Source of the DNA: Sipunculus nudus
Taxonomy: Eukaryota; Annelida; Sipuncula; Golfingiida; Sipunculidae
DNA: 64,000 nucleotides
Assembly: GCA_026874595.1 (NCBI GenBank)
Contig: CM049317.1
Coordinates: 43,674,401 to 43,738,400, forward strand
Reading direction: 5' to 3'
Below, piece after piece: positions 15,186 to 53,500 of this stretch (position 1 is its first letter; each line of letters opens with the position of its first letter). The notes under the pieces are model-generated. The model did not search any database, was not told where the DNA came from, and worked only from the letters and a program-made list of their open reading frames with translations. Position numbers and translations under genes: made by a program.

Positions 15186-15372
15186 CAGAAGCGGACCCAG
15201 CGGGACTCCATGCAGTGGGTCCGTATCCCATTTTCAGCCACCGCAACCTTTTTTTCATCGTATCAGACAAATTTTGAGGCCTGAAACCCCCGCCACCACC
15301 CAACCCCACCCCAGCCCTGTTCCTGAAATTGGGACCTTTAATTAGGTTTTGTCATTAATCCTCCTGGGTAGA
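15186..15372 (+). mobile_element. hAT-like MITE of the GCGGATCC family, truncated
   Basis: It starts CAGAAGCGGACCCAG and shares interior blocks (CGCAACCTTTTTTTC, GAGGCCTGAAACCCCC, GTCATTAATCCTCCTGGGT) with copies at 28,841, 33,912, 55,448 and 60,310. The right terminus is degraded. Confidence 0.65.
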
Positions 15373-28840: not shown

Positions 28841-29042
28841 CAGAAGCGGATCCGGGGGGGGGGGGGTCCGGACCCCCCCTTTTTCACCCGAAGCAACCTT
28901 TTTTAAGGGGTTTTAGACGTAATTTTGCGGCCTGGACCCCCCCCCCCCTTTTTCTAGACGTGATGACCTTTTTTTTTTAGGATTTTCATTAGTCCTCCTG
29001 GGTTGGACCCCCCCCTTTTCCTAAATCCTGGATCCGCCCCTG
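28841..29042. mobile_element. hAT-like MITE, GCGGATCC family (fullest copy)
   Basis: The ends are CAGAAGCGGATCC and GGATCCGCCCCTG, an imperfect inverted pair starting CAG and ending CTG as in hAT elements. The interior alternates G/C runs and T runs. The 8-bp flanks TACTATTG and TATTGCTG match only partly. The same family recurs at 15,186, 33,912, 55,448 and 60,310. Confidence 0.7.
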
Positions 29043-30703: not shown

Positions 30704-31011
30704 TGTCACATCTTACAGGGACCTAATCACCTATTAAGCATGTTAAATTACATGAAAAATGCCTTTTCCCTTTTCAAATAAATCTGTACCTGCCATAACA
30801 TTGTCTTGAAACCGTTTGCTTACTCCTCTAAACGAGTGTTAAAAACAGTGGACCTGGCGCGATCACAGATGTCAACATAAACACAGCGCGTGGGCCGTGT
30901 GCATTGCGGAGCCACCGCACTTTTCATTCAAGAGATGCCCTGACTGACGGTGTCAATAAACTTGTTCAACTTGCTCGTCTGCTCTATTAACGTTTCGAAC
31001 CTATACAAACA
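30704..31011 (+). repeat. 5' LTR of Ty3/gypsy relic
   Basis: It starts TGTCACATC and ends AACA immediately before a primer-binding-site-like TGGTATCAGAAGCGGGA (31,012). An AATAAA lies at about 30,954. A diverged copy of the same sequence occurs at 51,209-51,495, supporting its identity as a dispersed LTR. Confidence 0.75.
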
Positions 31012-31764
31012 TGGTATCAGAAGCGGGATTCACGAGCACAGATGTCTGAGAACTGTACGTAGTGCGTAATTTCATGGATAACAGGGCATAAAACTGCCAA
31101 AACAGTCATGGTTGAATCGGTATTCTCTCGGCCGGCCCCACTATCGTTTGTTCGCGCATATTTGAACAAGAGTTTGACATTTCCATCGCCGCTGCCCATA
31201 GTAAAAAGCCAAAACGTATACAGGTGTACATTCTTCTTAATCTTGCGGACAGTGAGGCGACAGAAAGAGAACGTTCATTCATATATAACTAAGCTGTCAC
31301 TAATGAAAGCGTCAATATTATCACTCCAGCAAAGAGCCGGGAAGATCCAGATACGCTGAAACGAAGATCCAGAGAAATGGCAACCCAAGATCTAATGTGA
31401 CATTAGAACGCCATACATTTAACACTCGCTCCCAGAAACCTGATGAGTCCATCCAGGCGTATATTGTCGATCTCGGGAATAAAGCTAGTACCTGCCAGTA
31501 TGGCGAGCTTGAAGATTACATGATCCGTGACAGGCTTGTATGTGGCACTTTAAAGGACAATATTCGTAAACTGCTCCTAAGAGAATCAGACCTTACACTT
31601 GCTAAGGCCATTAGCCTTTGTCAGATACATAAGCTGTCAGAGCAACAAAATGATCAGCTGACTGCTCAACCCACAGTGGTTACTGTCATCTCGCATAAAT
31701 ATAAGGGAAACAGACCTAACTGTCGAAACTGCAGTCGAACCCAAACAGAACACGAATGGCACAG

Positions 31765-32320
31765 CACTGCTCTCAAAACAAACCAGCTTTCCAGCAAAGT
31801 CAAATGGGTCAAAACCACAGAACCCTTCAAGAACTTTATCTTCATGTAATTATTGTGGCCGACAACACATGATGCCACTTGAAAAAAACTGTCCCGCGTT
31901 TGGCCGATTTTGCCGCTCATGCCACAAATGGAACCATTTTATTCGTTGTTGCATGTCAAACAGGCCAAAGTTCAAGCAGCAGTCACAACCACAAATTCCT
32001 AGACAGATACATGGCCTTGATGAACAAAACAAGCTTAGTCAGAATGGTACACTTTCAAAACAAACCAGCTTTCCAAGCAAAGTCAAATGGGCCAAAACCA
32101 CAAAACCCTTCAAGAACTTTATCTTCATGTAATCATTGTGGCCGACAACACATGATGCCACTTGAACAAAAATCTTCTGCGTTTGGCCGACACTGCCGCT
32201 CATGCCACAAATGGAACCATTTTGATCGTTGTTGCAAGTCAAACAAGCCAAAGTTCAAGCAGCAGTCACAACCACAAACTCCTAGACAGATACATGGCCT
32301 AGATGAACAAAACGAGCTTA
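31765..32320 (+). repeat. Tandem duplication of the gag zinc-knuckle segment
   Basis: Two consecutive copies of about 280 bp, both containing ACCAGCTTTCCA, GTGGCCGACAACACATGATG and GATACATGGCC. Each encodes a CxxCGRxH...FGRxCRxCHKWNHFxRCC double-knuckle pattern. The copies differ at scattered positions. Confidence 0.88.
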
Positions 32321-33911
32321 GTCAGAATGGTACATTCCTGAATGAATCTGTAGAGAACTATTCTATCAATTTCAAGAATGAGATACACTGTACCGTCTCA
32401 GTGCATGGAAATGGCATTGAACTGAAAGTGGACTCTGGTGTTAAGTGCAATGTCCTCCCTTATTCCCTTTCCCAACACATACTAGTATCTCATGATGAGC
32501 ACATTGATGAACAAGAGGCCGTGACCTTAGTTGCAAACGGCGATGACAATTTATACTCAAGGCAAAGTGCAGTTACCATGTCAAAAGAACAATGACATTT
32601 AAACACAATCTTTTTTTTTCATTTTGGACAAACCTTTTACACCACTGATTGGCCTGGAAGTCTACTAAACTTACACCTCATATCCCTTCATGACGTCAAT
32701 AGTGGCAGTACTATACCAGATACTCAAACTCTCTATATCACGGCCGAATACAGTGACCTCCTCGCGGGTGAACTTGGCACCCTGCCAGTACAGTACAAGA
32801 TGCATCTGGATCCTAATGTTATTCCTGTAGTTTGACCACCACGTCGCATGACTGTCGCTATGCAAGACAAAATTTAGGAGCTCGATCGTAAGGTCGATCA
32901 ACACGTGATTGCTCCAGTCACCGAACCGACTGAATGAGTTCCGTCCATTGTTGCAGCCTCGAAAAAGAACGGAAAAGATGCCCGTATCTGTATCGATCCA
33001 AAACACTTAAATCGAGCAATATTAAGACCACACCATGCGGCAAGAACAGTTAATGAAGTATTAACCCGAATACCTGATGCCCAAGTTTTCAATGTGCTTG
33101 ACGCTTCCAGTGGACTTCAGTGGACAGTCGGCTTCAGAGATCTTCCAGAAAACGATTGACCATCTCTTCGCAACTCTGCCATGTGAAATTATCGTTGACG
33201 ATATCCTAGTTTGGGGACGCACACAGGCAGAACACGATACTCACCTTCGCAAAGTTCTTGATCGTGAGCTTGCAGTTAATTTTCAGCTCAATGCTGCTAA
33301 GTGCCAGTTCCGTATAAGTGAGGTACCATATGTTGGACACATACTGACGGGTCTAGGTCTTAAACCTGATCCAGAGAAAGTCAATGCGATCACAAACATG
33401 TCTGAGCCAGATTCTGTTCAAACACTACATCAATTTTTAGGCATGACTCAATATGTTGCCAAATTCATAACCCACCTGGGTGATTTAACTGTTTCATTGG
33501 GTGAACTGATTCATAAAGATACCCTTTGGGAATGGAACGATTTGCACCGCAAGGCATTTAATGACATCATGCATATATGATCAGCACCAAACCTGTCCTT
33601 GCTTACTACGACGTTTCAAAACCTGTAACACTAACGTGTGACGCTTGCAAGTCCGGCCTAGGAGCTGCTTGCACCCAGAATGACAAACCAATTGCCTACG
33701 CCTCAAAAGCTCTACTGAACCACAATCACGGTATGCACAAATCGAAAAAGAATTGTTGGCTGTAGTCTTTGCACGCCACAAATTTCATGATTTTTTTTTC
33801 GGCCGAGACATTTATGTTGAAACTGATCATCAACCTCTTGTGTCTAATATCAAGAAACCGCTACAAAGTGCCACTTTGCGCCTGCAAAAGATGCTACTAA
33901 AGCTGCAACTA

Positions 33912-34122
33912 GGGGGCGGATCCAGGATTCAGGAAAGGGGAGGGGGTCCAACCGAGGAAGACTTATTAAAATCCTAAAAAAAAGGTCCCCAGGTCTGAAA
34001 AAGGGGGGTCCAGGCCGTAAAATTTGGTCTGAAAGCTTAAAAAAAGGTTGCGGCGACAGGAAAAGGGGGGGGGGGGGGGTTAAGACCTCCTGGAACCCTT
34101 ACCCCCCCCCCATCCCCTTCTG
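33912..34122. mobile_element. GCGGATCC-family MITE inside the gypsy RNase H region
   Basis: It interrupts the gypsy reading between LQKMLLKLQL and NIILVYKK. It starts GGGGGCGGATCCAGGATT, has the family's G/C and A runs, and ends CCCTTCTG. The gypsy sequence resumes directly after. Confidence 0.7.
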
Positions 34123-34269
34123 AACCATATAACATCATTCTGGTCTACAAAAAAAAGGATCAGACCTGCACCTAGCTGACGCTTTGTCCCAAGATTATCT
34201 ACCTAACTCAACAAGTAGCATGTTTTCCAGACTGCCTTGCGCTACACTGTAAAAAGTAGATTGCGATTG

Positions 34270-34730
34270 AACGCCTTGCAGTGTTCTAAAATATAACACT
34301 TGTGTTCAAATTTATAACGCTTGCGTTCATATATCAACAAGATACACCAATGTTACTTAACATGAGTGTTCATTTTTTTAACACATGCATTCATGAGCCT
34401 TACGTGAAGAAAGAGACCTTATATTCCACAAAATTTGTCAACTCTGGGGTTGTTTCTGAATTGTATTTAGCAAATCAAGCATTTGTGAAACTCATTTGTA
34501 CTGATTACTGTGGACGAATAACACCCAGACACGTATGGTAATAAAATGTTAATGCCAGCAACCCAAGGTGTTGATTCCCAGTTAACTGAGTATCTTTATA
34601 CACTGAAGGTGCTATAAATAATAATTTGATGTTTGAAATAATTTATTGGATTCTATATTTTAATAACTTTATTGGTTTCTCAGTTCTAACATGACCGGAA
34701 TGAACACTGGTGTTCATGCACCACGCGCTC
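34270..34730. repeat. Left subterminal repeat zone
   Basis: Repeated short palindromic motifs of the type AACACTTGTGTTCA, AACGCTTGCGTTCA, GAGTGTTCA and GAACACTGGTGTTCA. The same motifs crowd the right end of the unit. Confidence 0.75.
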
Positions 34731-34850
34731 GTTTTTACTTCTTGGTTGGTGCGGTAGAGGGCGCGGACGTGGAGCGCATGCGTAGAGCGTAGATTACCAA
34801 ATACCGGCAGCGTTCTTTCCAGAACTGTCGACCATCTTGGTGAGATAAAA
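34730..34850 (+). promoter_or_regulatory. CpG-rich promoter-like segment
   Basis: A locally GC/CpG-rich stretch in AT-rich surroundings. It contains GGAGCGCATGCGTAGAGCG (close to the NRF-1 palindrome) and ACCATCTTGG (YY1-like initiator) followed by GTGAGA, which could be the donor of a non-coding first exon. It faces the SAMD3-like gene. Assignment is by motif only. Confidence 0.45.
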
Positions 34851-36467
34851 TTTTGACTTTGTGCTTAATTTACCAAGCCTTAAATTAATAATAGTATTTG
34901 CTTTTGTAAACATTTACTTCCGAACACTTGCAAATATTTAGTCTATGTCGAATGGTGTATTTTGATAAGAGAAAAAGCCAGCGTTCTGTAACATGTAGTC
35001 AGTGTAGAAATCGTGTCAGCCGGTCACATGGGGGCCCGTTGACACGGGCGGGTATCTTCGAGGTGGATCAGACAACCAGTTCTCATGATATGTTTTCATG
35101 TATTCCAGCGTCTGAAGTTGCATTATGCCAGCCTAAAAACTGTCATAACGTTTCTGCCATGTTACTTTTAATTCTAATTGTTCTGTAATTTTGACAAGCG
35201 CCCCCCCCCCCCCCCCCCCCCCCCCCCGGCTCGGCTTGTCTTGCTTTTGGAATGTCCCATTGTTACAATGTTTCTGTTTCGCTCCGGCCTGCATGCTCCC
35301 TGATTCTGTGTTTCTGCACAGAACTTGAGACCTCAGTAACCCTGCCTCCAGCATTTTTGTAACAGATGACTGAAAGTCATCTGAGCTAACCCTTACCCCA
35401 TCATCACTACATCAGAATTACATTCTCATCAAATTCATGCATAGTTAATGAGGTCAGAGGTCACCAGATACACTATGGGCATATTATGCAGGTTTGCAAT
35501 GCTCTTGTTCACTTTCATGCACATATGTCAGTAAATAAGAATACTTTAGCCTTCAAATCATATGGAAGGTTTCTTTGGAGCTAAGTGAATGCAATGGATA
35601 CTATATTGAACAGAATTATTTCAGATTGATGATTCTATGGGAGATCAAATTTTGCTGATTGGAAAATTTCTGATTTCCTTCAGTCCTTGAAAAAATTGTC
35701 CAGCCCATTATTTTACCCCATTTCTCTAAGACATTACCTGCTTTTTTTCACCAAATTTTACACACTCAGCACATGGCTCACATGTGATTTTTACCTGCAG
35801 GTGGTGCCACCTTTCTGTGCACTAGATTGTCCTTACCACTTTCGTTCAGATAACTCCGTAAATAAAAACACTTTTAAACCATATCCAAGGATTCCTTGGA
35901 GCTATAGGAATTCAATGAATACTATATTGAAAAGAATTATTAGATGGATTTATCCCATACATAAGACAGGTGGGGCCTTGGATAATCATTTTACACACAT
36001 GCTTTTCTGCTTCAGTTACTTTAATGACACAAAACACATTTTGATCCAGAATTATCCTATTTCAGCCAATCCCAAGGAAAACACGTCACAAAAATGCCCA
36101 TATTTGAGTTATGCATGCGACGGGGGACTATTTGTGCCTCTAGGCCCTTGTTGGTCTCTTCACCTGATTACCATTCTGTCACATCTGAATTACTTTGTGA
36201 ATTTTCAAATTTTACTTCTGTTTCATATGTCATTCAGTTTATAGTATCCACCAATAATCAATAACATGTATATCGTATTAATCTCCATGTCTTATTCAAT
36301 TTATATCCATTTTCAAGTAACTTTCTCCAACTTCTCATGCTATCAAATCTGCAAGATTACACATTTCTCAAATTCCCATATGGTGGGGGATCCAGTCCTC
36401 TGGACATTTTCAAGTTTTGTATAAAGATGGTTTTATTTGATGTTTAATGATTCACATTATGAAATAG
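34851..36467. other. 5' intronic region of the SAMD3-like gene
   Basis: It holds a 27-base C run (35,201-35,227) and a minus-oriented copy of a dispersed repeat (35,690-35,945). An ATGTCGAATG followed by GTGTAT at about 34,944 would give a start codon in the right phase for the 36,468 exon, but the donor is poor. Confidence 0.4.
35690..35945 (-). repeat. Dispersed repeat, inverse of 49,620-49,945
   Basis: It shares, in inverse orientation, GGTGGTGCCACCTGCAGGT, AAAATCACATGT, GTGTAAAATTTGGTGAA and a CCAAGGAATCCTTG palindrome with the copy at 49,620. An ORF of 185 codons overlies it and is discounted for this reason. Confidence 0.75.
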
Positions 36468-36587
36468 GTGATCAGCTGATTACACCAATCCTGCTGCATA
36501 CTTCTGGTCAAGGTGACGAGGCAGAGCCAGAAGGCAAGGCTGAAGAGGAACAATCACAGAACAAAGCAGATAGTGCAGATGAAGATG
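36468..36587 (+). CDS. SAMD3-like gene, acidic N-terminal exon
   Basis: It reads DQLITPILLHTSGQGDEAEP and a Glu/Asp-rich low-complexity tail; donor GTAGGT in phase 1. The acceptor (GAAATAG) has a poor pyrimidine tract, so the start is the weakest part of the model. Confidence 0.5.
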
Positions 36588-36757
36588 GTAGGTAAATTAA
36601 TATATATATATATATAAATATATATATTACATACACACACTGAACTCCCGCCTGATGACCCACCCGTCAACACACAACCATCCCACTAACACAACCACAT
36701 TGCTAACATGACCAATTTGCCAGGTCCCACAGGTGGTCATGTTAGCAGCATTTTAAT

Positions 36758-36788
<31 letters not shown>

Positions 36789-37303
36789 CCATCCATCCAT
36801 TAACAGCTTTACTCAGCAGCTGCTGGACCATGGACTGATTCTCACAAAATTGTGTATGGATGTGTGCATCACAAACTCGCCCCACCTGCTCTGTTCATTT
36901 TTGTGTATTTAGGGCCCAATAAAAAATGTTGAACAGTCATGAAATCCAAAACAAAAAAATGTGTGCAGCATCCTCACATACATCTCTGTCATCACGCAAT
37001 ATTTAAAAAAAATTGGCCCAACCAATTTTCACTTTGGTGGAATGACTTGGTTTACTTCTCATTTTAGTGAGTACAGACAAAACTGATAGCTTTTCTGAAG
37101 CAATGCTTCATGGGTTTTCACTATATGTTGTAAATCTGACATAATGTATTTAATCTTGGTGATAGCTGGTCACTCAGTAAATTTTGTGGTGTAATTTCCA
37201 TTTTTGACAATTTAAGGAGTTTTTATGTTTTCAGCATTTAACAATCTTTAAGTGTAATCAAGCCTGCTTCACAGACATCTGTAATTATTTGATTAAAGTG
37301 AAA

Positions 37304-37352
<49 letters not shown>

Positions 37353-40300
37353 CCTGTCATTATGCAAAATCTGAAAAAAATTATTAACTAGTTTTTTTCA
37401 AGATCATAGCAGACCGCTATGGAAATTTATATTGGAAGGCTTTGAAGATTTTTTTTACATTTGGTGGGTGGTTTCCACCTGGGGATATATTGTTTGTATC
37501 CAGTTCGGGTCACTGTATATTCTCTTCACCAGGCTTTTCCTCAATCCTTTCACCATTGTGTTAATAGGGCATGATCAATTGTTCTTAACTCTTTGTCTCA
37601 TTTTTATATGACAACTTTTATAAAATTTTTATAATTTTCTTTTTCTTTTCATTTAATGTATTTAAACTTTACCTGGATATTTTTTGGTCAGATGTGTTCA
37701 AATTATTCCATTTTCAATATTGTATATATAAACATCTATTTAAAAAGTTTTCTGCATGAAACAGAATATTTCTTGCTTTTCTAGTATTTTCATATGGGCA
37801 ATGTTCACAGGTATGCTTTAGGCCTTTGTTTTACACCTATGTATTTATTTCTTTGCTAGCTTCTACCTTAGAACTAGAGAGGGCGCCTTTGCCCATCTTC
37901 ACTGGTCTGGTGAAAGAGGCCCTCGAACAGAGGGACCCAAGCACTGTTTGGAACAAGTTGGTGCTCCAAACTGCCAAGCATTTCTTCCCCATGTTGCAGA
38001 ACCCTACCTCCTTCCACTATAAGATAATTGGGCAAAGAATGTACAAGCGATACCCTTGCATTGGGCTGCCAGGTGCTGGAAACCCATGGGTGAGTTTTGT
38101 TTTGTATTTATCCAGTCAAGTTAGCTCAGCTGACTTAAAGTCCACTGAGCAATAGGAATAGTTTGTCTGTCAACCATCTGTCCAGACAGCCGTTAACAGA
38201 GCACAAATCATAACCATGTAAGGGCTGGGATCATGAATCTGTGTGGTCTCCGACGTCCAAAACAGATCTCTAAGGATACCTGCATGAGGTTGTGTGATCT
38301 ATACTCCCCAAGTTACGGGGTGTGTTTGAGCACACAAGAAATACAGTTTCTTGTCAGTAAACTCTATACAAAATTTCTCAGGAAGGGTAGGATAGATTGT
38401 AATGAAATTTGGTAGGCTTATAGATCTTGATAATTGTTATCTGCTGCAAGTGACTTATGGTACCACTTGTATTATCTTAATTATACAAAATTTAACCTTT
38501 ATTTTTAGAAAGCAAAAATGCGGCTTATAACAGGCCACAAGTCATAAATATTGAAAAGATGGCTCCTGCTTCACATGGACACAGGCCTGATATAATGACC
38601 TAAGACCTGAAATGCGGTGGAAGTGACTTATATTCAACAAATTATGGCCTACCTTTTTATTTAAAAAAAAATTATCCATATAAACAAATTCAGTTGAGTG
38701 TTGTCACCCCTGGGACTCTAGTTTAGATGATGAGATTCTTAAACAGCAATTAATGGAAAACCAAAACTGATTTTTGCTTTATAACATTAATTTCTTCACA
38801 ACCATGTCAAAACTAACTGGTCTGTGGAAATCATTACTGATTTTTACTTTTCCACTGTTCTGTTACATGGGGGGGGGGGGGGGGCAAGTTTACTCTCAGC
38901 ATATTCTGAGGATATGAAAATCATTTTTGTGTATGAACTAATATCTATGCTTTCAGATGGCTTTCAATAAGACGTTGGCACAGAAAGTACGCCACATGAA
39001 ACATGATTTAAAAGCCCGTTCCAAAAAGGCCAAGCCACATCCACTTAAGGAGGTACAGCAGTATTGTGTTGGGCCTCAAGCTAACAAGAGACAATACTCT
39101 CTCAAATCTCCAGGTGAACTTTTAAATTTTGTATTCAAAGATGAAATTAGTAGGGAATTCTCCTGCAGGATTCCCTCTAGTCAATCTGTTAATGAGTATA
39201 GTTAATAATCAGCATATAATTTCTGTATTTTATGGTTTCCCAGACAAAAAGAATTAAATACTATGGTTTTGAACCAGTCGTTCCATGGCATTAGACTGAC
39301 AACTGCATGGTCACAAGAGCAAGAAGCCTATTTTAAATGGTTGCTGTTTGGCCTTGAATGTGCCCTGTAACCTCATGCATACCCTAACATGCATTTTAAA
39401 GGCCACTGCACAATGACCACAGGATCCATAAACTTCTAAATGGGGAACATCTCACAGTTGAAATAGACTCATTATAACTTAATTGAACTGGCTTTTGACC
39501 CCATTTATAACCTCGAGTCATATCCAGGCCACTGTATGGTAACCACTAGACCTAGAATTTGGGAGAATCTCATATTTAACGTAAGAATTTGCCATTATTA
39601 CCTATATATTTTTAGAAATCAATATATATAGCCTTCAGCAGAAGCTGACCTGCTTTTAACGGGGTATATCCAATGTCTAGGGATACCACTGTATGGCCAT
39701 TGCTAGTAATTCTATTTTTAAACTTGTTACAGCACTGCAGGTTGATGACAGCCAACAGGAAGAAGATACGGAAAGCCACCTGCAGGTCTTAAGAGAGGAG
39801 TGCAGGAAGGATCCTGACTGCCACAACACTGCCCATCTTAGGACTCTACTGAAGCACACACATGCCTTCAGACAGGATCTATTGAAGAACCACCATGGGG
39901 GTGACGTACAGCCCATCCTGGAACACTTTCCATGTTTGGACCAAATCGACTTTGTGAGTAATGTTTATGTAATGTTTCATCTTTTGCATGCATCTAACTA
40001 TAAACATGCTGTGGTTCCCTTTGATTTTACCAATTAGTGTGATCTTGCTAACCAGCTAATCATCATAGTCTTCTGAACAGTTTAATGAGAACTTGCTACA
40101 TCAATACACCAAATTATTCTTTCACAACTAAGCCTCACACTGAATTTGAAGAAAAAATACAAGTTGATCAGTGTCCTACATGAGATTTCTTCAAATACAA
40201 TGACAGGGTTACATTACTCTGATGAGCTCTAACCATGGAATACTAAGTAGTAAGATTAATTGTGGCCAGTTTATTGGGCTTTCAGTTAAGCATGTCTTTT

Positions 40301-43273
40301 GTTCTTATTCAATTGTCACAATGATTCAAACTTACATTAAATAACTGATCAGGGCTATGGTAAATATTAATTTTTGTTTGATAATATACATATATACATG
40401 AACCAGTAGATCTACATATGGATAAGTCAAACATAAAGTAAGTTAAAAACACTTTTCTTTAGGTAATGTACGACCTTGGACTAAAGTTTGGGCCAGAACG
40501 ATATGAAGAAATGTTTGAGAAAATCACTTGCTTGAGGGAGATGGCAGTGAAGTCCATGAAGAGTAAAGATGCTGTAGGCAGTTTTTAATAATATTTGTGA
40601 AATCCTTATAGAGACATTTGTTTTTTTAACACTTTTTAGCTCAGCTGACTGTAAGTCGACGGAGGTATAGGAATGGCACTTTGTCCGTCCGGCTCTCTGT
40701 CTGTCCGTTAGCAGGGCACAAATTGTAACTGCTGGACCTAGTATCTTATCACTTGACATCCAGGGAGGTCCATGAAAAATTTCCTTGGAAACCTGAAACA
40801 AGGTCTCTGTTACCTATATTCTTTGAGCTTTGGGGCTCTGAAGTACCCCCCCCCCCCCCCCCCCCCCCGGAATAACGGAAAATGTACCTGAACAACTAAT
40901 GCATTGATCACCATGACTCTTTGCGTGGAGGTTCACCATAGTGTTTCATCAGTTCCTGCAGACTGGTGGCACCACCTGTATTTTTTTTATTTTTTATGAT
41001 TCTTTTTCTCTATTTTTGATACCTTTAAAGATGTGGTCAGCAGTTAACAGGGCACAAATCGTAATGACTGGACCTAGAATCTTCTATCTTGACATGTAGG
41101 GAGGCCCATGAAAAGTTTCCTTGGAAACCTGAAATAAGGTCTCTGTTACTCATATATCCTTTAAGCTATGGGGCTCCCTAAGTATCGCCCAGAATAATGG
41201 AAAATTTGATACAAAATCTCAAGTATCTTAACAATTGTTGCATTGATCACCATGATTTTGTGCATGAATATTGTTCTTTGAATGTTTCATCAGTTTCTTT
41301 AGACTGGTCAGGCCAACTGTATTTTTTCGATTTTTTACGATTTTTGCTGGTCAGCTGACTGTAATCCACTGGTTCTAGAAGTACATAAATATCCTTACAA
41401 TCAAATTCAGCTGAGCATTGAGACCCATGGGTCTCCTAGTTTTATTCGTCTCACAGAAGAGTCAAGACTCGCACACTGCATGATGTCTGTAAACAGGTCT
41501 ATAATGGTGCATGTAACTCAAATTGCCTTTTACCATCATATAAAATCTGAACTGTAAACTTTGAATTTAATTCTGTAAGATGGCATTGACTTGAATATAA
41601 GTTACAATTACAGAAAAGTATTGTTTCTGTTTTATGTTGGAATGAATTTGAAGATTTCCCTGCAATCTCTTCACAGGACACATGCACAGACGAACTGACC
41701 AGCTGGAGAAGAATTGAGGACATAGTGCGTTTCACAAAAGGAAAAAGCAGGTCCAGCAGTGTGATTAAGATAATTGAGGTAAATATATATTTACTTATGA
41801 AAAATATATGTATGAATTAACATTGCAAAGAACTGCACTATGTTTTTACAGCCGCAGCAATGTACAATATTTAGGGACAAGTGTATCAGCAAGACCAGAT
41901 GGACTTCAAACAAACATTTTAGACTTTTTAACTCAGCTGTATTATAACTGTGAGTCAGATCTGAGCTATAGTGACATCCATCTTCTGTCAAGCTTGCTGT
42001 ACAGAGAGTACAAGTTGCAGCTGTTGGACCTAGGAACTTCTAACTCAAATTAAGGGAGGTCCTGGGGAAATCTGCTTGGAGACGTAAAATTAGGTCATGG
42101 TGACCTATTTTCTGCCAGCTATGAGACAAAAAACCATTTTCAGCACTGAAAGGTAGACTTTTCTTAGTATTCCAGGTTCTTCAACAAAATTTGTGTTGGT
42201 TCATAACATTATAGAATAATGTGCCTCATTAACATCTTTAAGACTATCACTATGCACAGTTTGAACAGAATCCCCCCTACTCCCAATTTCAAGTTCTTCA
42301 GAAATGTCACTTAAACTCGTTCATTTTTTTTGCAAATAGTCCATTTTGTCCATTTCATACAAATCTCTAGCATCTCCGTAATTTATCCAAGGGTTGCTAT
42401 GAAATTTGCTTTGCATGCTGACCTTAAATAGCTTCATTTTTTACATTAGGCTATTTTTTTAAATTTTTCATGCAAATTTTTGAGAACTGCTAATTATCAC
42501 AAATGTGTCAGTTATCTCAGCTATTGGCTGATGCATTTTACATTCCTACTTGTTTTTTCAACTGCCAGAATGAAACATCTGAGTTATAAGGATGGCCCTA
42601 TGCCACCTTCTATCTGTCTGGCTGCCAAGCCAGTTGCAGATGGTAATTATAAGGGCTGGTTCCTCAGATTTTGCAGTCGGGCATTATCTCGATTGTCTGT
42701 ATTGGCAATATGCTGTTCAAGCAAATATTAATTCTTGCTCCTATTAAAAAATCACTACTGCTTAAGAAATTGTGCTCTTTTGGTCCAAAAACCTCTTTCT
42801 GGTCATAATTTTAATGCTCCCGCAACCCAAGGAAGGCTGGGGGGGGGGGGGGGGCATTAAGTGTTAGCTTTTCATTAAGTCCATACGTACGTACATCCGT
42901 TCGTCACAGAATGTTGACCCATGGGTCACTTGTGTAGTGATGATATTTGTTTAATTGCTTTAAATTTTTGTATCTGTAGGAGGAGATGCTGCATGATGCT
43001 GTGGAGAAGAAACAGTACGTTGGACCCTCAATGCTTTTGGTCGAAAGAGAAGGGGCCATAACTGACATCAAGGTTGCTGTTGACAGTTCCTTAATCAGTT
43101 GTGCCACAACATCAGTTGACAATGCTTTAGTGCACCTCATTTGTGTATATTATAACTTTGATATCGAGTACCCCAGGGTGTACAGCCAGGTCCTCGACCT
43201 CATACACCCGTTTAGGGGTGTAACTTCACAGGGGTACAAGTTCCTTTTGAAAAACATTGAAAATACTTTGTGA
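36468..43273 (+). CDS. SAMD3-like multi-exon gene (cargo of the CACTG unit)
   Basis: Seven coding exons: 36,468-36,587; 37,860-38,089; 38,957-39,113; 39,733-39,953; 40,463-40,573; 41,677-41,778; 42,980-43,273. Phases agree at every junction, giving about 410 residues to TGA. An acidic N-terminal part (EAEPEGKAEEEQ) is followed by LPIFTGLVKEALEQRD, a basic block (QKVRHMKHDLKARSKK), an acidic-to-helical middle, and a C-terminal block (GPSMLLVER... IEYPRVYSQVLDLIHPF). These resemble the large, poorly characterised family annotated in fish and invertebrates as sterile alpha motif domain-containing protein 3-like; I saw no SAM domain in the part found. Function is unknown. The initiating exon is unresolved. 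Introns contain several host-type dispersed repeats. The reading frame looks intact, unlike nearby transposon genes. Confidence 0.72.
37860..38089 (+). CDS. SAMD3-like gene, exon with LPIF...NPW block
   Basis: Acceptor CTTTGCTAG, donor GTGAGT, phase 1 in and phase 0 out. It encodes LPIFTGLVKEALEQRD, HFFPMLQNPTSFHYKIIG and RYPCIGLPG, ending NPW. This is the part that looks most like the SAMD3-like family. Confidence 0.75.
38126..38430 (+). repeat. Dispersed repeat (AGCTCAGCTGACT family), copy 1
   Basis: It shares AGCTCAGCTGACTT, a CTGTC-rich stretch and GCACAAATCATAAC with copies at 40,636, 41,040 and 41,934. All lie in introns of the SAMD3-like gene. Confidence 0.65.
38957..39113 (+). CDS. 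SAMD3-like gene, basic exon
   Basis: The acceptor follows TGCTTTCAG; the donor is GTGAAC. It begins MAFNKTLAQKVRHMKHDLKA and is rich in Lys/Arg. The Met is internal to the spliced protein. Confidence 0.75.
39733..39953 (+). CDS. SAMD3-like gene, exon 4 found
   Basis: The acceptor follows TTGTTACAG; the donor is GTGAGT. It encodes a Gln/Glu-rich start (QVDDSQQEEDTES), then LRTLLKHTHAFRQDLL and PILEHFPCLDQIDF. Phase 1 in, phase 0 out. Confidence 0.75.
40463..40573 (+). CDS. SAMD3-like gene, exon 5 found
   Basis: The acceptor follows CTTTTCTTTAG. It encodes VMYDLGLKFGPERYEEMFEK and CLREMAVKSMK. The donor GTAGGC is acceptable, and the phase-0 exit fits the next exon. Confidence 0.7.
40636..41440 (+). 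repeat. Dispersed repeat, copies 2 and 3
   Basis: Two consecutive related copies (about 40,636-41,030 and 41,035-41,440) sharing GGGCACAAAT, GACCTAG, CATGAAAA-TTTCCTTGG and AAGGTCTCTGTTAC. The first contains a 23-base C run (40,846-40,868). Confidence 0.75.
41677..41778 (+). CDS. SAMD3-like gene, exon 6 found
   Basis: The acceptor follows TCTCTTCACAG; the donor is GTAAAT. It encodes DTCTDELTSWRRIEDIVRF and a Ser-rich stretch. Phase 0 on both sides. Confidence 0.7.
41934..42120 (+). repeat. Dispersed repeat, copy 4
   Basis: A diverged copy with CAGCTGTTGGACCTAGGAAC and GGGAGGTCCTGGGGAAA in intron 6. It has no G/C run. Confidence 0.55.
42980..43273 (+). CDS. SAMD3-like gene, terminal exon
   Basis: The acceptor follows TTGTATCTGTAG. 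It encodes EEMLHDAVEKKQYVGPSMLL, then TSVDNALVHLICVYYNFDIE and YPRVYSQVLDLIHPF, ending IENTL and TGA. The hydrophobic VDNALVHLICVYY...EYP pattern matches the conserved C-terminal block of the family as I recall it. Confidence 0.78.
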   Translation, partial: EEMLHDAVEKKQYVGPSMLLVEREGAITDIKVAVDSSLISCATTSVDNALVHLICVYYNFDIEYPRVYSQVLDLIHPFRGVTSQGYKFLLKNIENTL

Positions 43274-43389
43274 AATTGAAACATGTTTATGTTTTATTGG
43301 TTAAGATATATGATACAATTGGTCCCATCGGTCACACATGAGAACTGAGATATGAAGCTGCAAACTGTTTTACATACATGTTATTGATT

Positions 43390-46083
43390 CATGACATGAT
43401 ATGATACATGATACGATGTATGATACAATACATGATACGATGCATGGTATGATGTGTTTTAAGATGCATGATACGATGTATGATACAATACATGATATGA
43501 TGCATGGTATGATGTGTTTTAAGATACATGATACGATGTATGATACAAAACATGATACGATGCATGGTATGATGTTTTAAGATACATGATACGATGTATG
43601 ATACAATACATGATACGATACATGGTAGGATATGTGATACCATACATGATAAGACACATGATATGATATATTTAAGACAAATGATACGATGTATGATACA
43701 ATACGTGATACGATGCATGGTAGGATACATTATACGATGTATGATACAATACATGATACGATGCATGGTAGGATACATGATACCATACATGATAAGACAC
43801 ATGATATGATATATTTTAAACACATGATACGATGTATGATACAATACGTGATACGATGCTTGGTACGATGCGTTTTAAGATACATGATACAAGGCATGGT
43901 ATGATACATGACACGATGCATGGTATGACACGTATACGATTAGTGATACGATGTGTTTTAAGATGCATGATACAATGTATGATACAATACATAATACGAT
44001 GCATGGTATGATGTGTTTTAAGATACATGATATGATATATGATACAATACATGATATGATGCATGGTATGATGGGTTTTAAGATACATGATACGATGTAT
44101 GATAAAATACATGACACGATGCATGATACTTTACATGATATGATGCATGGCATGATATATAATATGATACTTGATACGATGTGTTTTAAGATACATGATA
44201 CGATGTATGATACAATACATGACACGATCCGTGATACTTTACATGATATGATGCATGGTATGATGTGTTTTAAGATGCATGATACGATGTATGATATAAT
44301 ACATGATACGATGCTTGGTACGATGCGTTTTAAGATACATGATACAAGGCATGGTATGATACATGACAAGATGCATGGTATGACACATATACGATTAGTG
44401 ATACGATGTGTTTTAAGATGCATGATACAATGTATGATACAATACATAATACGATGCATGGTATGATGTGTTTTAAGATACATGATATGATGTATGATAC
44501 AATACATGATATGATGCATGGTATGATGGGTTTTAAGATACATGATACGATGTATGATAAAATACATGACACGATGCATGATACTTTACATGATATGATG
44601 CATGGCATGATATATAATATGATACGTGATACGATGTGTTTTAAGATACATGATACGATGTATGATACAATACATGACACGATCCGTGATACTTTACATG
44701 ATATGATGCATGGTATGATGTGTTTTAAGATGCATGATACGATGTATGATATAATACATGATACGATGCATGGTATGATGTGTTTTAAGATACATGGTAA
44801 AATGTATGATACAATACATGATACGATGCATGGTATGATGTGTTTTAAGATGCATGATACGATGTATGATACAATACATGATATGATGCATGGTATGATG
44901 TGTTTTAAGATGCATGATACGATGTATGGTATGATGTGTTTTAAGATACATGGTACAATGTATGATACAATACATGATACAATGCATGGTATGATGTGTT
45001 TTAAGATGCATGATACGATGTATGACACAATACATGATATGATGCATGGTATGATGTGTTTTAAGATACATGATACGATGTATGATAAAATACATGACAC
45101 GATACATGACACTTTACGTGATATGATGCATGGCATGATATATGATATGATACGTTATACGATGTGTTTTAAGATACATGATATGATGTATGATACAATA
45201 CATGACACGATCCGTGATACTTTACATGATATGATGCATGGTATGATGTGTTTTAAGATACATGATATGATGTATGATACAATACATGATACGATACATG
45301 GTAGGATACGTGATACCATACATGATAAGACACATGATATGATATATTTAAGACACATGATACGATGTATGATGCATTACATGATACGATACATGGTGGG
45401 ATACGTGATACCATACATGATAAGACACATGATATGATATATTTAAGACACATGATACGATGTATGATGCAATACATGATACGATGCATGGTATGATGTG
45501 TTTTAAGATGCATGATATGATGTATGATACAATACATGACATGATACTTTACATGATATGATGCATGGTATGATGTGTTTTAAGATACATGATACAATGT
45601 ATGATACAATACATGATACGATACATGGTAGGAAACGTGATACCATACATGATAAGACACATGATATGATATATTTAAGATACATGATACTATGTATGAT
45701 ACAATACATGATACGATGCATGGTATATGTTTTTTTAAGATACATGATACGATGTATGGTACAATACATGATACGATGCATGGTAGGATACATGATAAGA
45801 CGCATGATATGATATATTTAAGACACATGATACCATGTATGATGCAATACATGATACGATACATGATACGATCTATGAAACAATGCATGATACTATACAT
45901 GATACTATACGTTTTAAGATACATGATACAATGTATGATACAATACATGATACAATGCATGGTATGATACATGATATGTTTTAAGATACATGATACGATG
46001 TATGATACAAAACATGATAGTTTTAAATACATGATACTATGTATGATACATTACAGGATACGATACATGATACGATTCATGTT
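43390..46083. repeat. 2.7-kb satellite of 60-bp units
   Basis: Head-to-tail 60-bp units containing GATACATGATACGATG, TATGATACAATACATG and GCATGGTATGATG, usually ending TGTGTTTTAAGAT. Higher-order blocks and partial units are mixed in. Because 60 is a multiple of three and stop codons are rare in some frames, long ORFs run through it on both strands (up to 343 codons). These have a 20-residue His/Met/Asp-rich period with no domain and should not be taken as genes. The array starts about 117 bp after the SAMD3-like stop codon. Confidence 0.95.
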
Positions 46084-46339
46084 AGTACACATCATATCGA
46101 GTGTAGCAAACAGTTTTACATATATGTTATTGTGTAGATCTGTAACATTAACAGATTTGCAAGTTCTATATATTTTTATAATCTTATTTTTATAATTATT
46201 TTGTATGTAGCTCATTCATCCAGTTTATACCTGAAAGACGTTCCAAATTTAAGATTTTATGCATGAGTGAACAGAATTGTTTTCAGATCAAAATACTATT
46301 TTTTTCTTCCACTTGAATATATTATTAGTATTAGACAAA

Positions 46340-46635
46340 CTTGAATGGAAGTGTTCAAGGGGTGAACAATGAACGCTTAAAAGTGTTCATTTTTCAAAAT
46401 GAACACCTTAAAGTGTTCAAATTCTGTTTCACGGTTTGAACACTTTCAGGTGTTCATTTTTTGAACACTTCAACAGTGTTCATAATGCTGTGTATAAAGT
46501 GTTCAGATGAAATAAACACGAGGGTTTATTATTTTAACACAGGCGTTCATTTTATTTTTGAACACATGTGTGCTAAAACTGTTTCAGATAAGTGTTCAAA
46601 AAAGTGTTCAGAAGAGCTCCCTAGATTTTACAGTG
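46340..46635. repeat. Right subterminal repeat zone
   Basis: At least ten copies of GTGTTCA/TGAACAC in both orientations, leading to the terminal CTAGATTTTACAGTG. The counterpart of the left zone. Confidence 0.8.
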
Positions 46636-47246
46636 TACGTTCACGGAGGCCTGGAACAAGGCCTTACGTCATCGTCCCACAGTATACCGCGCTAAATAAC
46701 AACAGAACCACGTGTAAGGATGTTTACGCGTGTTAGTTTGCATGCTCACTTCGAAACACCGTGATTTAATACTCGTCAGTTGTTGGCAAATTTAAGAATA
46801 ATGCTTATTTTTTCATGCAGTGCCTTAAAATATGCCGTAATGGGATTTTCTTGACGGTTTCTGAACAAAAATAAGCATATTTAAAGCGGTTTCTACACCA
46901 TTAAAAACAAAGTCAAGACGCGGGGCATTGCATGGCATTGGAAAGCGACACATTTACCCATGTTAGATGTCTGCGTTTCGGAAGTTCCTTCTGCGGCATT
47001 TTAATAAGACATGTCACTTAACTGCTTTGGTATGTGAACAATCACTGTGCCTAACGATTTTGATATGCCGCGCCTATGAGTATATTTAATTTGACATCGA
47101 GATGTCTGCATATTTGCTATTTCGAGCCGGGTATTACCCGAGCCGGGTATCTGCCAAAGATATTTTGATGGAGTTTTGTTGTTTTACATTAAAACAAGGG
47201 GGGGGGGGAGGGTAATAAATAGTCTTTTTCGACCATCCAAAGGATC

Positions 47247-47289
<43 letters not shown>

Positions 47290-50200
47290 TAATAAACCAA
47301 ACAAAAAAAGTCTTATCTGTCATGTATAATCTTGAGGTCAAATGTTCTTCAATTTGGACTCTCTTTGAATTTTCTGCTATATAATATTTCCATTCACGAT
47401 GGGGGGGGGGGGGGGGGGGGCAGTATGAGTATAGCTGGCAGTGGTTCACAACAATACAGTTCCACCTGCTCCAGGTCAAACGTCTACTATCAGCAGTATA
47501 TTATTGACAGTTATCGTTTTGCGGAATTAACTCATTTATATTTAAGAGATATATGTGACCCGATGACATTAAAGGATCATTATAGGTTCAGTTGAACATA
47601 TATGGTGTACGATTTTTTAAAAAGAGCTGGTTTAGGGTGTCCCTTTCGAGCAGTTGCGAAAATGTCAAAGGAATATATTATATCAGTAAAGAGGAATTCT
47701 CTCACAAATATCCGGCGAAGTGAAATCGTCATTAAACTGGAAATACAATAGGATTTCGTTCATCTGCATCTGTCTCAATCAATCGCCATTCACACTGACC
47801 AGTACTTTAGAACCGTCATGCAAACTTGGCTTACAATACTTATAAAAATCATTAATGTCTTGAAATTTTTCACAACTCCATCCACAGCTCAATATGATAC
47901 TGAAAAGGAGAGCAAAACTAATTTGATAACAAGAGATTATACCATTAGTGAAGTTAATTACGTGTTTTCTTTTTCAGTGTATTTGGATTCTTTGGCCAGT
48001 CCCCAATCATGTCAGCCAAAGTCCCGATTTCCTGATAACAACGACTACCTCTCCTGTCAAATCAAGTTTACAGCCATCCAGACCCCCTGACCCAGCTAAT
48101 GACTTGTCTAAGATTTGAACAGTTGTATGATTTTTAATTACTCAAATGAATGGGCTGCCTATTCTTTCTTTGTTATTTTGTATGTTCACAATCCGAATCA
48201 GGATTTGGGCTGGTATTCTGATGAATTTTAGACTTTTAAAAATTATATGTTGAGAACAAAAGTTTAACTTTGAATATTGTATTTTATTCCAAAATGTAAA
48301 AGGAAATGAAAAAAAAGACCTTATGTATTCTGTCCAAGTCTTGCAGAATACTTGGTATTAATATATATACTCCAGATAAATATATATACTCTAGAAGATT
48401 TCTATCAAATATAAACAGTGTTTTTAATTAAAATTTGAATGTCTGAGCTAAAAATGCCATTAAAAATATATTTCAAATGTTTTAATTTAAAAATTATGAG
48501 TAGACGGTCTACTATGGTCCTTTTTATGTTTAAATTACAACAATGCATGCAAATCCTCATATTCAGATTTGTTTTATGGAACTAAAAATTACTTCGCCTC
48601 CCAGTGGTTTCAGCCAAAGAAGGGTATCCCCAGTTTGGTTGTCTTCTTTTTAATTTATTTTTCAGACTTTAGGGCTGTATAATTTAAGCGATGACTTTTG
48701 ACGCGCCACTTTACATTATAAAAGTTAGTTCTTTTTATCTCAGGTAATGCCTGTGTAACAAAACTTATAAAATCAATAAAAAAACATATATACAAATTTT
48801 ATGAAGTTTTATTTACTTTTATTTTAAAAGTTAAAGCTTCAAGTTTACTTATGTAACTTCATTTAAGTCGCATTAAAGAGTACACGACGTATTGCCCCTT
48901 GTCGTTTACATGGAATCTTAACATCAAAGTTTTACTCTGCCCCTAAAGCTGATGTATACCCTAATTAAAAACAAAATATTCACTTATTCAATAACATGAA
49001 GAAGCTTTAAATTGTTAACTAATAGGCTGAATGACAAACTAACGTTTTCAATCGATTTGGCTCATCAAATTAATGATTAAAACTAATCTTGCCTCTTTAC
49101 ATCCCAAATAACTTTTACGTCTTAAATTTATATACCTTTATATATTTTAAACTTTTAATTTTATAATTTGAAGGTAAAACATTCTAAATAGAGTTTTGAA
49201 ATTAATTTTAATGGATTAAGCACATCATAATTAGGTAATGGTAGCTCTGATTGAATTTGGTAGTAAAAATGTCTCCACATAACAATTTCATAGAGTGAAC
49301 CTCTGACATTAACTCATACATATTTTCAAGAAGTTATGTACCGAGATAAGATAATAAAATTGCCGATTTCATGCCTTTTGGACATTTTTCCAGAGGGGTA
49401 ATGTTTTGATATATGATCTCCATGAATCACTTTAACAGAAAATGGCATCAAACCTAATAACGAAGGGGTTGCAGCAAAACTTAAAATTACAGGATTGGTC
49501 CCGGGACTACTCAGAGAAATGTGGTAAATGAATTATGCGGGACGGACGGACTGGAGGGAAATCAGAAAATTACACGATCAGCAAAACTTGAGCTCCCGTG
49601 GAAACATCAGTTTGAAAATAATTCTATTCAATAAAGTATGCATTGAGTTAAACTGGATCCAAGGAATCCTTGCATATGATTTCTAGGATAAAGTTTTCTT
49701 ATTTACTGACTTATCTGATCAAACGTGAAAAACATAATTTTGGAAAGCAGAAATTCCTAAAACATAGGTGGTGCCACCTGCAGGTGAAAATCACATGTCA
49801 TTCATGTGCCGAGTAAGTGTGTAAAATTTGGTGAAGAAAGCAGCAAGGGTCTTAGAGATATATGGTAAAAGAATGGAGCGGGGCGGACGGACGGACAGCC
49901 GTACGGACGGACGCGGACCATTTTAGTAGTCCTCCCTCATATGGCCAAGGACTAAAAAAGTGCGAAAAATGCCTATAGATCCTGAAACCATTGCCAAACA
50001 ATGTTTGAATTTGATATCTTGAATAGTTTGTTGGTGTTGTCTAGATACTCAAACGAACAGTACTTGTAGGAAAAATAAGAACTTGCACATTGTGTTATAA
50101 TAATACAAAATGCGAAATTATGTATATAGTTTCTTTCATGTACTGTGTGCTGATACGAATATTTGTATTGATAAATTGCTTTCCTGTTCTATATTAATGA

Positions 50201-50426
50201 AGTTTTTAAGTAACTTAAGTATTCCGCGCAAGCATTGATAACGATATAATGTTACAAATGATGCGATGGTACAAACGTGCTTTTCATTGTTGACGGGGTC
50301 GGGGTGGGGGGGGGGGGGGGGGGGGGGAGCTGGTTTAGCCTGGATATTCTCTTCACGAACTTGTGAGTGCCAAGTTACATTGTTACAAGCATGCTGGAGC
50401 TGACATGATGACGTGTACAATCTTAC
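46636..50426. other. Region between the CACTG unit and gene B
   Basis: AT-rich. Contains (TA)n at 47,250-47,286, a 20-base G run (47,401-47,420) and a dispersed repeat (49,620-49,945). A plus-strand splice-acceptor-like TTTCTTTTTCAG before 47,978 opens a Pro/Ser/Thr-rich frame, but no partner exon was seen. The cytoplasmic exon of gene B would be expected here and was not found. Confidence 0.5.
49620..49945 (+). repeat. Dispersed repeat ending in GGAC repeats
   Basis: Inverse-oriented relative of 35,690-35,945. It ends in a GGACGGACGGAC-rich tail and CTCCCTCATATGGCC. Probably a SINE or MITE; class unresolved. Confidence 0.7.
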
Positions 50427-50521
50427 CTTGCCGTGCCACCACAATATGATGAAACCCGTCGCACACAGACCCAGCAATAACCCGAGAACGGCTGTCCCCA
50501 CCTTAAAGCCCAAACACGGGT
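50427..50521 (-). CDS. Gene B transmembrane exon
   Basis: The acceptor follows TCGTTGTAG; the donor is GTAAGA. It encodes GFKVGTAVLGLLLGLCATG and FIILWWHGK: a 20-residue hydrophobic helix followed by a basic end, consistent with type I topology. It exits in phase 0. Confidence 0.8.
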
Positions 50522-53500
50522 CTACAACGAGTGCTACTGATACTTACAACCAAGACAGTTTGATCAAACATAGAAGTATATTAAAATTCATTCTTTGAAT
50601 AATTAGAAAATGATATAATCATGTAACTCTTTTTCATGATGGCTGTCAATTATTCTATGTCCATAATATTATTTTGCTTATTGATATCGGACAAGTTATT
50701 AATATATTATTTTTAACAAAATAATCAGAGGCGTATTAAATTTTTTGAATTGGTAATGTATACATCGTACTGTTGTAAATACCATGACGTGTACCTCACA
50801 TGTTTTACCCATGTTTGTGTTATATAAATGTGCTCTAAATGAAACACAGAGTTGTGTGTTGATGTTTACAAGTGGTGTGTCGTTATAACGCATACATACC
50901 ATGTTGCGAGTCCTGGGGTCCTGGCTTCTCTGAGAAACAGACGTGGCCGTAAATGTAAGCAGCAGGTTATAATTAAAACATGAACATAATGAAACAAAAC
51001 ATTAAAAGGCAGCACATGCAGATTGATTGAAAATTTATAAAGCAACAGCGCCCATTAAAACTGCAATAATACTAACCACAAACTTTTATCAAGTTCTCTA
51101 GAGTTTTAGCAAACAGTGCAGTCTGGTTTGCCGCTATCTTTGAACGACATTCGATTATTTACATATTATAACTGACCGCTTATATAGAAACTCATGAATG
51201 TTATACGGTGTGCTTAAAGGGGCTAATCAACATTAAAGCGTAATGAACTGACACGAAAAATAGCTTCTTCTCTTTACAATAAATGTGTACCTGCCAATAT
51301 ATTGTCCTGAATCCGTTTGCTTATTAAGTACTGTAAACAAGCGTTAAAATAGTGCACCGAGCGCGATGATAGGCGTCAACATAAACGCAGGGCGTGCAAT
51401 GCGCATAGCCCACAACAGCTTGTCAATCAGGAGATGCCCTGACTGCCTTGGCCATGTAAAAATGTAATACGTGTTCCTGCTTGCTGAATTATCGCGTGTG
51501 CGGGTCACAATAAGTTCTACTGTCACGCGGCCTTATTATGGTAAGCAGACACATTTGCACTGCGTTTAATAACACGCAGAACAATAACAAGCTGTTAAAC
51601 AGCCGTATGCGGGGTACTGAGACTGTGTGCTGGAATGGTTTTGCTGGGGAACTTTTGTATTATGCAAAAGTGAACTGATACTTTGAAAAAATAGGCATAA
51701 TATTGCTCCTGATTACGGCCCTTCAATTTCCCTTTGATCATTTGTTTGGTACATCAAAATGTGGTAGTATTTCAGTACTTCTACTCATCCGGTCACTACC
51801 CGGTGTAGAAAGATGATAGTATCTAGTAATTAAGCAACATGCACGGATAGGTCGACGCCTTACCTCTGCACACAAATCGATGACTTTGACCGCAGGGTGC
51901 GGCTCGCCATCCGTATATGACGTCATGATACTTAACAGCGCATTCCCCTTCCCTTGGCGAAGGCTCGTCTAACCCCCAGAGGATTACGTTACCAACGGTA
52001 CCTGCATAAATAAGAAAAAAGACAATGACACTAAAGATCAGGTAAAATATGGTTTTGCATATTTATTACAGTTAATATATTCAGCATGTAAATTTGGTGA
52101 ACTATAGACATAATACTTATTTGATGATGTACACTGAGGCTTTAACATCATAATATCATCATACTAACATTATTTTAGTCTTGTTCCCTATTTGTCTAGT
52201 TTACTTGTATTATTATTGCTCATTGTATGCAAATGTTTAACACTATGTGACCTCGGCGGAAGTCCTGAGGTACATCGAATTTTATTTTAAATCAAATAAA
52301 CACCATCTGCTATTGAATTAGACTGAGAACGACGGATGAAATTTAAGCTGTTTCCTTGTGATATATTTTCGCATTTGTCAAACTCTGCTCTCAGGTTTAA
52401 TGGCATGGTCACTTTAAATAGTTAATTCTGAATACTGTATATCTACCGTTTTCAGTCTCCTTCCATTCTTCCCGTCTCAATCCGACCCAAACCTTCATGC
52501 ATTTATTTCCGGCATGAAAAGCTTGAGCAATGGCCCTGGTGAGAGAGTCGGTTTTGACTACAGCGAGGTTCATCCCTAGGCCATGACACTGCTGTCTGGC
52601 ATGGAACCAGTTTCTTGCATCACAGAAGTAAGTATAAACGGTCTGGTTAAAGTTGAAGCAGGACATGCTTGGAAGACCAAGGTTCTCACACGTCGGGCCT
52701 ACAAGAAGCAGGTAAGCACATCTAGCTAAAGATGAAACAGATCATTCTTGGAAGACCCAAAAGCTCACACGTCGGGCCTAAAAGAAGCAGGTAAATACAT
52801 CTAGGTAAAGATGAAACAGAACATGCTTGAAGGACCAAGATTCTCACACGTCGGGCCTAAAAGAAGCAGGTAAATACATCTAGCTAAAGATGAAACAGAA
52901 CATGCTTGAAGGACCAAGATTCTCACACGTCGGGCCTAAAAGAAGCAGGTAAATACATCTAGCTAAAGATGAAACAGAACATGCTTGAAGGACCAAGACT
53001 CTCACACGTCGGGCCTAAAAGAAGCAGGTAAATACATCTAGCTAAAGATGAAACAGAACATGCTTGAAAACCAAGATTCTCACACGTCGGGCCTAAAAGA
53101 AGCAGGTAAATACATCTAGCTAAAGATGAAACAGAACATGCTTGAAGGACCAAGATTCTCACACGTCGGGCCTAAAAGAAGCAGGTAAATACATCTAGCT
53201 AAAGATGAAACAGAACATGCTTGAAGGACCAAGATTCTCACACGTCGGGCCTAAAAGAAGCAGGTAAATACATCTAGCTAAAGATGAAACAGAACATGCT
53301 TGAAGGACCAAGATTCTCACACGTCGGGCCTAAAAGAAGCAGGTAAATACATCTAGCTAAAGATGAAACAGAACATGCTTGAAGGACCAAGACTCTAACA
53401 CGTCGGGCCTAAAAGAAGCAGGTAAATACATCTAGCTAAAGATGAAACATAACATGCTTGAAGGACCAAGACTCTCACACGTCGGGCCTAAAAGAAGCAG

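Follow-up and report, generated by a model that had tools for sequence, protein, structure and literature searches.

Transposons of the CMC/EnSpm group duplicate 2–4 bp of their target site, with 3 bp being the rule in plants, and in the maize element En/Spm the transposase reading frames lie within the first intron of tnpA, which is itself found downstream of the transposase. Genes named SAMD3-like are annotated as ordinary host genes. An account of plant CACTA elements describes how the En/Spm protein TNPA binds the subterminal repeats and how both element proteins are required for transposition, and it depicts accessory proteins as varying from element to element and the soybean element Tgmt* as carrying 4 subterminal repeats at its left end and 24 at its right end (PMC2613891). 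The report on a CACTA element from Schistosoma presents its second proteins as lacking detectable relatives in other animal or fungal elements (PMC1636069), and a review points out that the line between accessory and cargo proteins is sometimes difficult to draw (PMC6431247). Here, we describe a 12.4-kb unit with CACTG ends that contains a SAMD3-like gene and lies in a 64-kb stretch of the Sipunculus nudus assembly (C12:43674401-43738400, assembly size 1.43 Gb), which as a whole is referred to as the window. The element family of this unit is called A, the window copy being the A copy on C12, and a second element on C5 is called B. We consider it likely that the unit represents an EnSpm/CACTA-like cut-and-paste transposon with two genes, in which the SAMD3-like gene encodes the element's own second protein with a TnpA-like role.

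A search of the assembly with the left 236 bases of the unit gave seven matches, namely the window copy, C7:19435505, C5:48219657, C5:48595621 and three diverged partial relatives on C9, C3 and C17. The C7 copy and the two C5 copies start exactly at CACTG with the same terminus as the window copy, each after CTA. The C7 copy is about 17 kb long (C7:19435505 to 19452467) with TA on both sides, and its two termini, its subterminal repeats and the complete set of seven SAMD3-like exons are present. The C5 pair has no right end past unit position 46209 and is interrupted by later insertions. As the two C5 copies are 99.6% alike including 1.5 kb of flank on each side, they were counted as one insertion, and the four long A copies seen (window, C7 and the C5 pair) amount to three insertions. 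The duplicated C5 segments that hold the pair (C5:48218157-48221379 and C5:48594121-48597343) are 376 kb apart and differ in their later insertions.

The C7 copy also contains a stretch with open reading frames (ORFs) of 208 and 654 amino acids (aa), which are in one frame with a single stop between them. The shorter ORF has a C2H2-like region when inspected by eye, and its best Pfam match was ADNP_N with an E-value of 4e-4, below the cut-off. The core of the 654-aa ORF had DUF4218 as its sole Pfam match (E 0.1), and the transposase of B matched the same family with an E-value of 0.029; both values fall short of the cut-off. The A and B proteins have motifs in common around HDPMHILLEG and PKMHYAVHLP..GPL..W.MRFE.KH, and we take these motifs to resemble those of CACTA transposases. 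The same gene was present in both C5 copies, where it is broken. A PDB search gave no match to the transposase, no relatives were seen in viral contigs, and none of the 25 pattern matches in prokaryote contigs was confirmed. The stretch appears to encode an EnSpm/CACTA-like transposase, now broken, and the C7 protein would have consisted of a C2H2-like N-terminus followed by a CACTA-like core.

The SAMD3-like gene of the window copy has seven exons between 36468 and 43273 on the plus strand, with consistent phases and a product of ~410 residues, and the exon joins confirmed the open gene that a preliminary description of this DNA had proposed. E2 (36468..36587), where C7 has a GC donor, is the first coding exon found, and the start codon and 5′ leader are unsettled. 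It is followed by E3 (37860..38089), E4 (38957..39113), E5 (39733..39953), E6 (40463..40573) and E7 (41677..41778), each placed by a phase-consistent join and by comparison with the other copies, and by a last exon with the stop codon (42980..43273), which falls 18 bases (6 codons) short of its counterparts in C7 and C5 with the frame kept. An exon-like segment at 42569..42642, also on the plus strand and conserved in four copies, fits the phase of neither neighbour. All seven exons are open in C7, and all seven are kept in the C5 pair, where the frame is disrupted by 4 bases missing from E6. The name of the gene reflects what we presume to be a likeness to the C-terminal region of vertebrate SAMD3 and to SAMD3-like proteins of fish and invertebrates. 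The protein had no Pfam or PDB match, and two pattern matches among viral contigs were not confirmed. A SAM domain was not matched by Pfam in the 410-aa product, which may lack an upstream exon at its N-terminus.

The coding sequence of the gene is constrained between C12 and C7. The 20 changes between the two copies comprised 11 synonymous and 9 non-synonymous ones, giving a ratio of non-synonymous to synonymous rates (dN/dS) of 0.21 (one-sided p 0.0009 in a binomial test). For C7 and the first C5 copy (C5a), dN/dS was 0.28 in the SAMD3-like gene and 0.36, 0.40 and 1.9 in three pieces of the transposase. Noncoding divergence between C12 and C7 was 2.0% (98/4885) and 3.3% (59/1792) in two alignments, in which the exons diverged by 1.5% and 2.5%, respectively. 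The C12 and C7 copies of A therefore separated recently relative to the decayed gypsy element that flanks the window copy.

Element B (C5:48207275-48219363; 12,089 bp) lies 0.3 kb upstream of a C5 copy of A. Its termini read CACTGAAAA at both ends with AG on both sides, and the motif TTAGTC/GACTAA occurs 3 times in its first 160 bases, 13 times in its last 300 and 5 times in between. The transposases of B and A share 29% identity (E 4e-73), and the part of B that aligns is interrupted by two stops. Downstream of it and on the same strand are pieces of a SAMD3-like gene, which were picked by eye from open frames with approximate exon borders. The last exon matched that of A with 39% identity over 38 aa (E 0.002). 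When the B and A proteins were compared, the score was reached by 0 of 2000 shuffles for the C-terminal part, 1 of 2000 for the N-terminal part and 3 of 2000 for the whole protein. At the level of sequence, a SAMD3-like gene is linked to a transposase in two diverged elements.

The unit had previously been proposed to be, provided that its ends are paired, a DNA transposon mobilizing a host-type gene as its cargo. In the strongest form of this explanation, an ancestor captured a host SAMD3-like gene, which was then carried and expressed with no part in transposition. The family is named after a host gene, the introns are long as in host genes, the constraint on the gene could equally come from use by the host, and the left-end relatives on C9, C3 and C17 have no such gene. 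On the other hand, the gene is present in all four long A copies and recurs in B, where it accompanies a transposase of only 29% identity; its association with the transposase is therefore probably long. In both elements the gene is downstream of the transposase and on the same strand. That order and orientation have been kept beside transposases so diverged makes a component likelier than a passing cargo, and we regard the captured host gene as an unlikely explanation. The SAMD3-like gene probably is a standing component of A- and B-type transposons.

Several results weigh against a second transposon gene. For the SAMD3-like gene, dN/dS rose to 0.38–0.43 when C12 was compared to the frame-broken C5 pair, and between C12 and C7 the exons diverged by 1.5% and the introns by 2.0%; constraint is not uniform. 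Searches of Pfam and PDB revealed no DNA-binding domain in the SAMD3-like protein, and the single-sequence structure prediction for one exon, the last, was too poor to judge or to use (mean predicted local distance difference test score of 53). In their middle parts, the A and B proteins were no more alike than shuffled sequences (500 of 2000 reached the score). The transposase core was not matched by Transposase_21 in Pfam, in addition to the DUF4218 match being under the cut-off, and the transposase piece with a dN/dS of 1.9 between C7 and C5a had 2 synonymous and 14 non-synonymous changes. The preliminary description had suggested looking for an autonomous copy with the same ends. Longer relatives with a transposase do exist in the same assembly, and the C7 copy has both ends, but the transposase is broken in all three A copies that have it. 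The ends of B, of which no second copy was seen, were chosen by eye from CACTG and the motif clusters and match at 10 of 15 bases, and another place gave a 12/15 match without CACTG. The linkage comes from few cases, as no more than two transposase-bearing lineages were observed, and these are separated by just 0.3 kb on C5. Finally, in the 20 kb inspected at each of the left-end relatives on C9, C3 and C17 neither a transposase nor a SAMD3-like gene was found.

In the C7 copy, the longest with both ends, the order is a CACTG terminus, motif sites, putative promoter and leader, transposase, multi-exon SAMD3-like gene, minisatellite, dense motif array and the second terminus. A CpG-rich segment at 34696..34839 on the plus strand of the window copy, seen in the sequence and in a table of CpG counts, is promoter- and leader-like, and CTTG|GTGAGA at 34839/34840, identical in C7, may be the first splice donor. 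Both products may be spliced from this one promoter. The SAMD3-like protein would bind the subterminal repeats of its own element, pair both ends and regulate the promoter, as TnpA does in maize En/Spm, and would be active in transposition, past or present. We infer that it is an animal counterpart of TnpA in function and not by descent.

The CMC/EnSpm-like class given in the preliminary description agrees with the short target repeats, the termini and the subterminal motifs, with the reservation that the transposase family matches are below the cut-off. CACTG is found at both ends of the window copy and at both ends of B (chosen by eye), and the termini of the C7 copy read CACTG and CACAG. 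All three elements with both ends have 2-bp target repeats (TA/TA on C12, TA/TA on C7 and AG/AG for B), and both A and B have a repeated subterminal motif at both ends, with a different motif in each. The arrangement in C7 suggests that the transposase frames are inside the first intron of the gene for the second protein, as in maize En/Spm. Pack-MULE and Pack-CACTA elements are similar in having termini around a host-like gene, and the window copy resembles them in being without a transposase. Here, in contrast to Pack-TYPE elements, the gene is open and constrained between two copies, and it is also present in copies with a transposase. Fungal DNA transposons with TET/JBP genes have reportedly been found in one study (PMC12730594), and they are similar in that a host-type gene family is tied to transposases, while the gene and the hosts differ. 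The plant elements covered in PMC2613891 offer further parallels: maize En/Spm and other plant CACTA elements such as soybean Tgmt* have CACT- termini of 13–15 bp, motif arrays with few sites on the left and many on the right, and a large size, and they combine a transposase with a multi-exon second product and give rise to deletion derivatives (PMC2613891). A and B differ from plant CACTA elements in that their termini begin with CACTG instead of CACTA, their target repeats measure 2 bp where those of the plant elements measure 3 bp, Transposase_21 is not matched, and the second gene is SAMD3-like without known relation to TnpA. For SmTRC1 of Schistosoma and its relatives, a transposase of the CACTA type is described together with a second product that is supposed to act like TnpA; those second proteins are reported to be unlike sequences of other animal or fungal elements (PMC1636069), whereas the second protein described here is present in both A and B, diverged as they are.

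Longer relatives of the unit in the same genome carry both genes, which suggests that SAMD3-like genes may be functional components of transposons instead of ordinary genes of the animal. A wider reading, which we put forward tentatively and hold to be possible but somewhat less than an even prospect, is that the large SAMD3-like families of aquatic animals are mostly TnpA-like second genes of EnSpm/CACTG transposons, each fitted to its own motif, and that vertebrate SAMD3 is then perhaps a domesticated transposon gene or the source of one. If this is true, the copy numbers of SAMD3-like genes count transposons and do not reflect adaptive expansion, annotations would have to change, and animal CACTA-like elements would have a recurring second protein. 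A with GTGTTCA and B with TTAGTC are protein and motif pairs that can be tested directly. Among the papers listed by searches of the open-access literature, no title or abstract opening ties SAMD3-like genes to transposons, which does not imply absence from print.

No transposase was found in the window by tblastn with the transposases of A and B (best E 0.62), in agreement with the earlier statement that the unit has no recognizable one and with the mobilization in trans proposed there, since this copy could move only with transposase from elsewhere. This search with both elements' own proteins was the firm test; the Pfam scan of the unit interior covered 16 of 39 open pieces, one of them shortened. 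The C7 copy and the C5 pair carry the transposase stretch that is missing from the window, the C5 pair with a further insertion, and the window unit is therefore best read as an internal-deletion derivative, in which ~4.0 kb with the transposase gene (4,010 bases counted in C7) was lost from the region preceding E2, and the rest was kept. The scar is at 35367..35368. Its edges, CAGAT and CAGCT, have one exact base in common, and this ~1-bp microhomology is compatible with end joining as the source of the deletion. Direct repeats of 22 bp were rejected as its cause because the apparent repeat came from overlapping alignments. The reverse order of events, in which the window copy is ancestral and C7 and C5 gained the 4-kb segment afterwards, when a different element inserted into them, would account for the shorter window copy and for edges that form a near repeat. 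We consider it very improbable, since the junction is the same in the separate insertions on C7 and C5, the exact target repeat at the edges is only one base, and a related transposase occupies the equivalent position in B.

The left terminal inverted repeat of the window copy, CACTGTAAAAAGTAG (34245..34259, plus strand), and the right one, which reads CTAGATTTTACAGTG on the plus strand (46621..46635, minus strand; one base changed in C7), match at 13 of 15 bases as inverted repeats. TA is found outside both ends, at 34243-34244 and 46636-46637, as a 2-bp TA/TA repeat without a 3-bp target duplication. By itself a 13/15 match is weak evidence within 64 kb, and a combination of features was therefore tested. 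The pair at 34245 and 46635 was the best match among 1283 CACTG/CAGTG pairs spaced 0.3–20 kb apart in the window, and none of the other pairs among the 20 listed with a match of at least 11/15 was flanked by TA at both ends. GTGTTCA/TGAACAC occurs 20 times in the 64 kb: the unit has 4 sites within its first 480 bases, 12 within its last 300 and 1 between the two ends, and 3 sites are outside it. The left sites (34264..34720) comprise 4 exact and 9 matrix sites at the looser threshold, and the right array (46348..46614) comprises 12 exact and 15 matrix sites, some of them palindromic. The weight matrix was trained on the right end only, with 200 dinucleotide shuffles as control, and in the rest of the window the sites were densest at the left end. 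There, the stricter threshold gave 5 sites in 160 bases, which none of the 200 shuffles reached, and the looser threshold gave 6 sites, reached by 2 of 200.

Segments of the C7 copy are 92–97% identical to the window unit from 34242-34245 through to the right terminus at 46635, and the 1 kb on each side of the C7 copy had no match in the window. Both termini therefore belong to one element, which has moved, and this is settled as far as sequence can settle it; the termini, the flanking TA and the motif clusters were all present as first described, and the pairing of the ends into one unit held. Two miniature inverted-repeat transposable elements (MITEs) of one family flanking an ordinary host gene by chance, the alternative named beforehand, were rejected as scarcely credible: diverged left-end relatives on C9, C3 and C17 do exist, but no inner partner terminus with at most one mismatch in the first 10 bases was found near either end, and the C7 copy holds the whole stretch including the gene at an unrelated site, which all but refutes separate MITEs unless C7 is a segmental duplication.

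Within the element, a minisatellite of 12/60-bp units extends over 43394..46081 and has counterparts in C7 and C5. This 2.7-kb array is bracketed by a direct repeat of 27 bp (93%) at 43360-43386 and 46106-46132. Elsewhere, at C9:47216332-47217864, there is a terminus-like tandem repeat with 13 matches to the left terminus, each with 2 mismatches and spaced by multiples of 63 bp.

The left flank of the unit (31300..34244, plus strand) is a decayed gypsy-type gag-pol remnant with matches to RT_RNaseH (E 6.8e-12) and to RVT_1 (E 1.1e-6, just below the cut-off), and with a gag part assigned by eye. The pol frame reads up to the junction, as expected from the insertion into a gypsy element proposed earlier, but the right half was not found beyond 46637, so that this supporting argument is half confirmed and a complete gypsy split by the unit was not shown. 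Positions 46638-51250 had no Pfam match in the 17 of 33 open pieces scanned (at least 45 aa, plus strand, low-complexity runs cut), and translations were otherwise inspected by eye. A same-strand repeat of 73% identity links 30712-30946, shortly before a primer-binding-like site in the gypsy remnant, to 51213-51445; these may or may not be the two long terminal repeats of the gypsy, which would place the transposon inside it after all. The remnant contains a G-rich insert at 33913-34071, with relatives at 28873-29040 and 15227-15291. Open frames on the minus strand include 52409-52741 and 50136-50543; one of these frames is exon-like and resembles a C-type lectin (Lectin_C, E 3.6e-4, just below the cut-off), and another seems, by eye, to have a membrane segment. 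Our guess is that, if these form one minus-strand gene, the transposon would be in or beside that gene. Long and highly regular tandem arrays are present at 52648-54443 in 79-bp units (97% matches) and at 12221-12697 in 37-bp units (95%).

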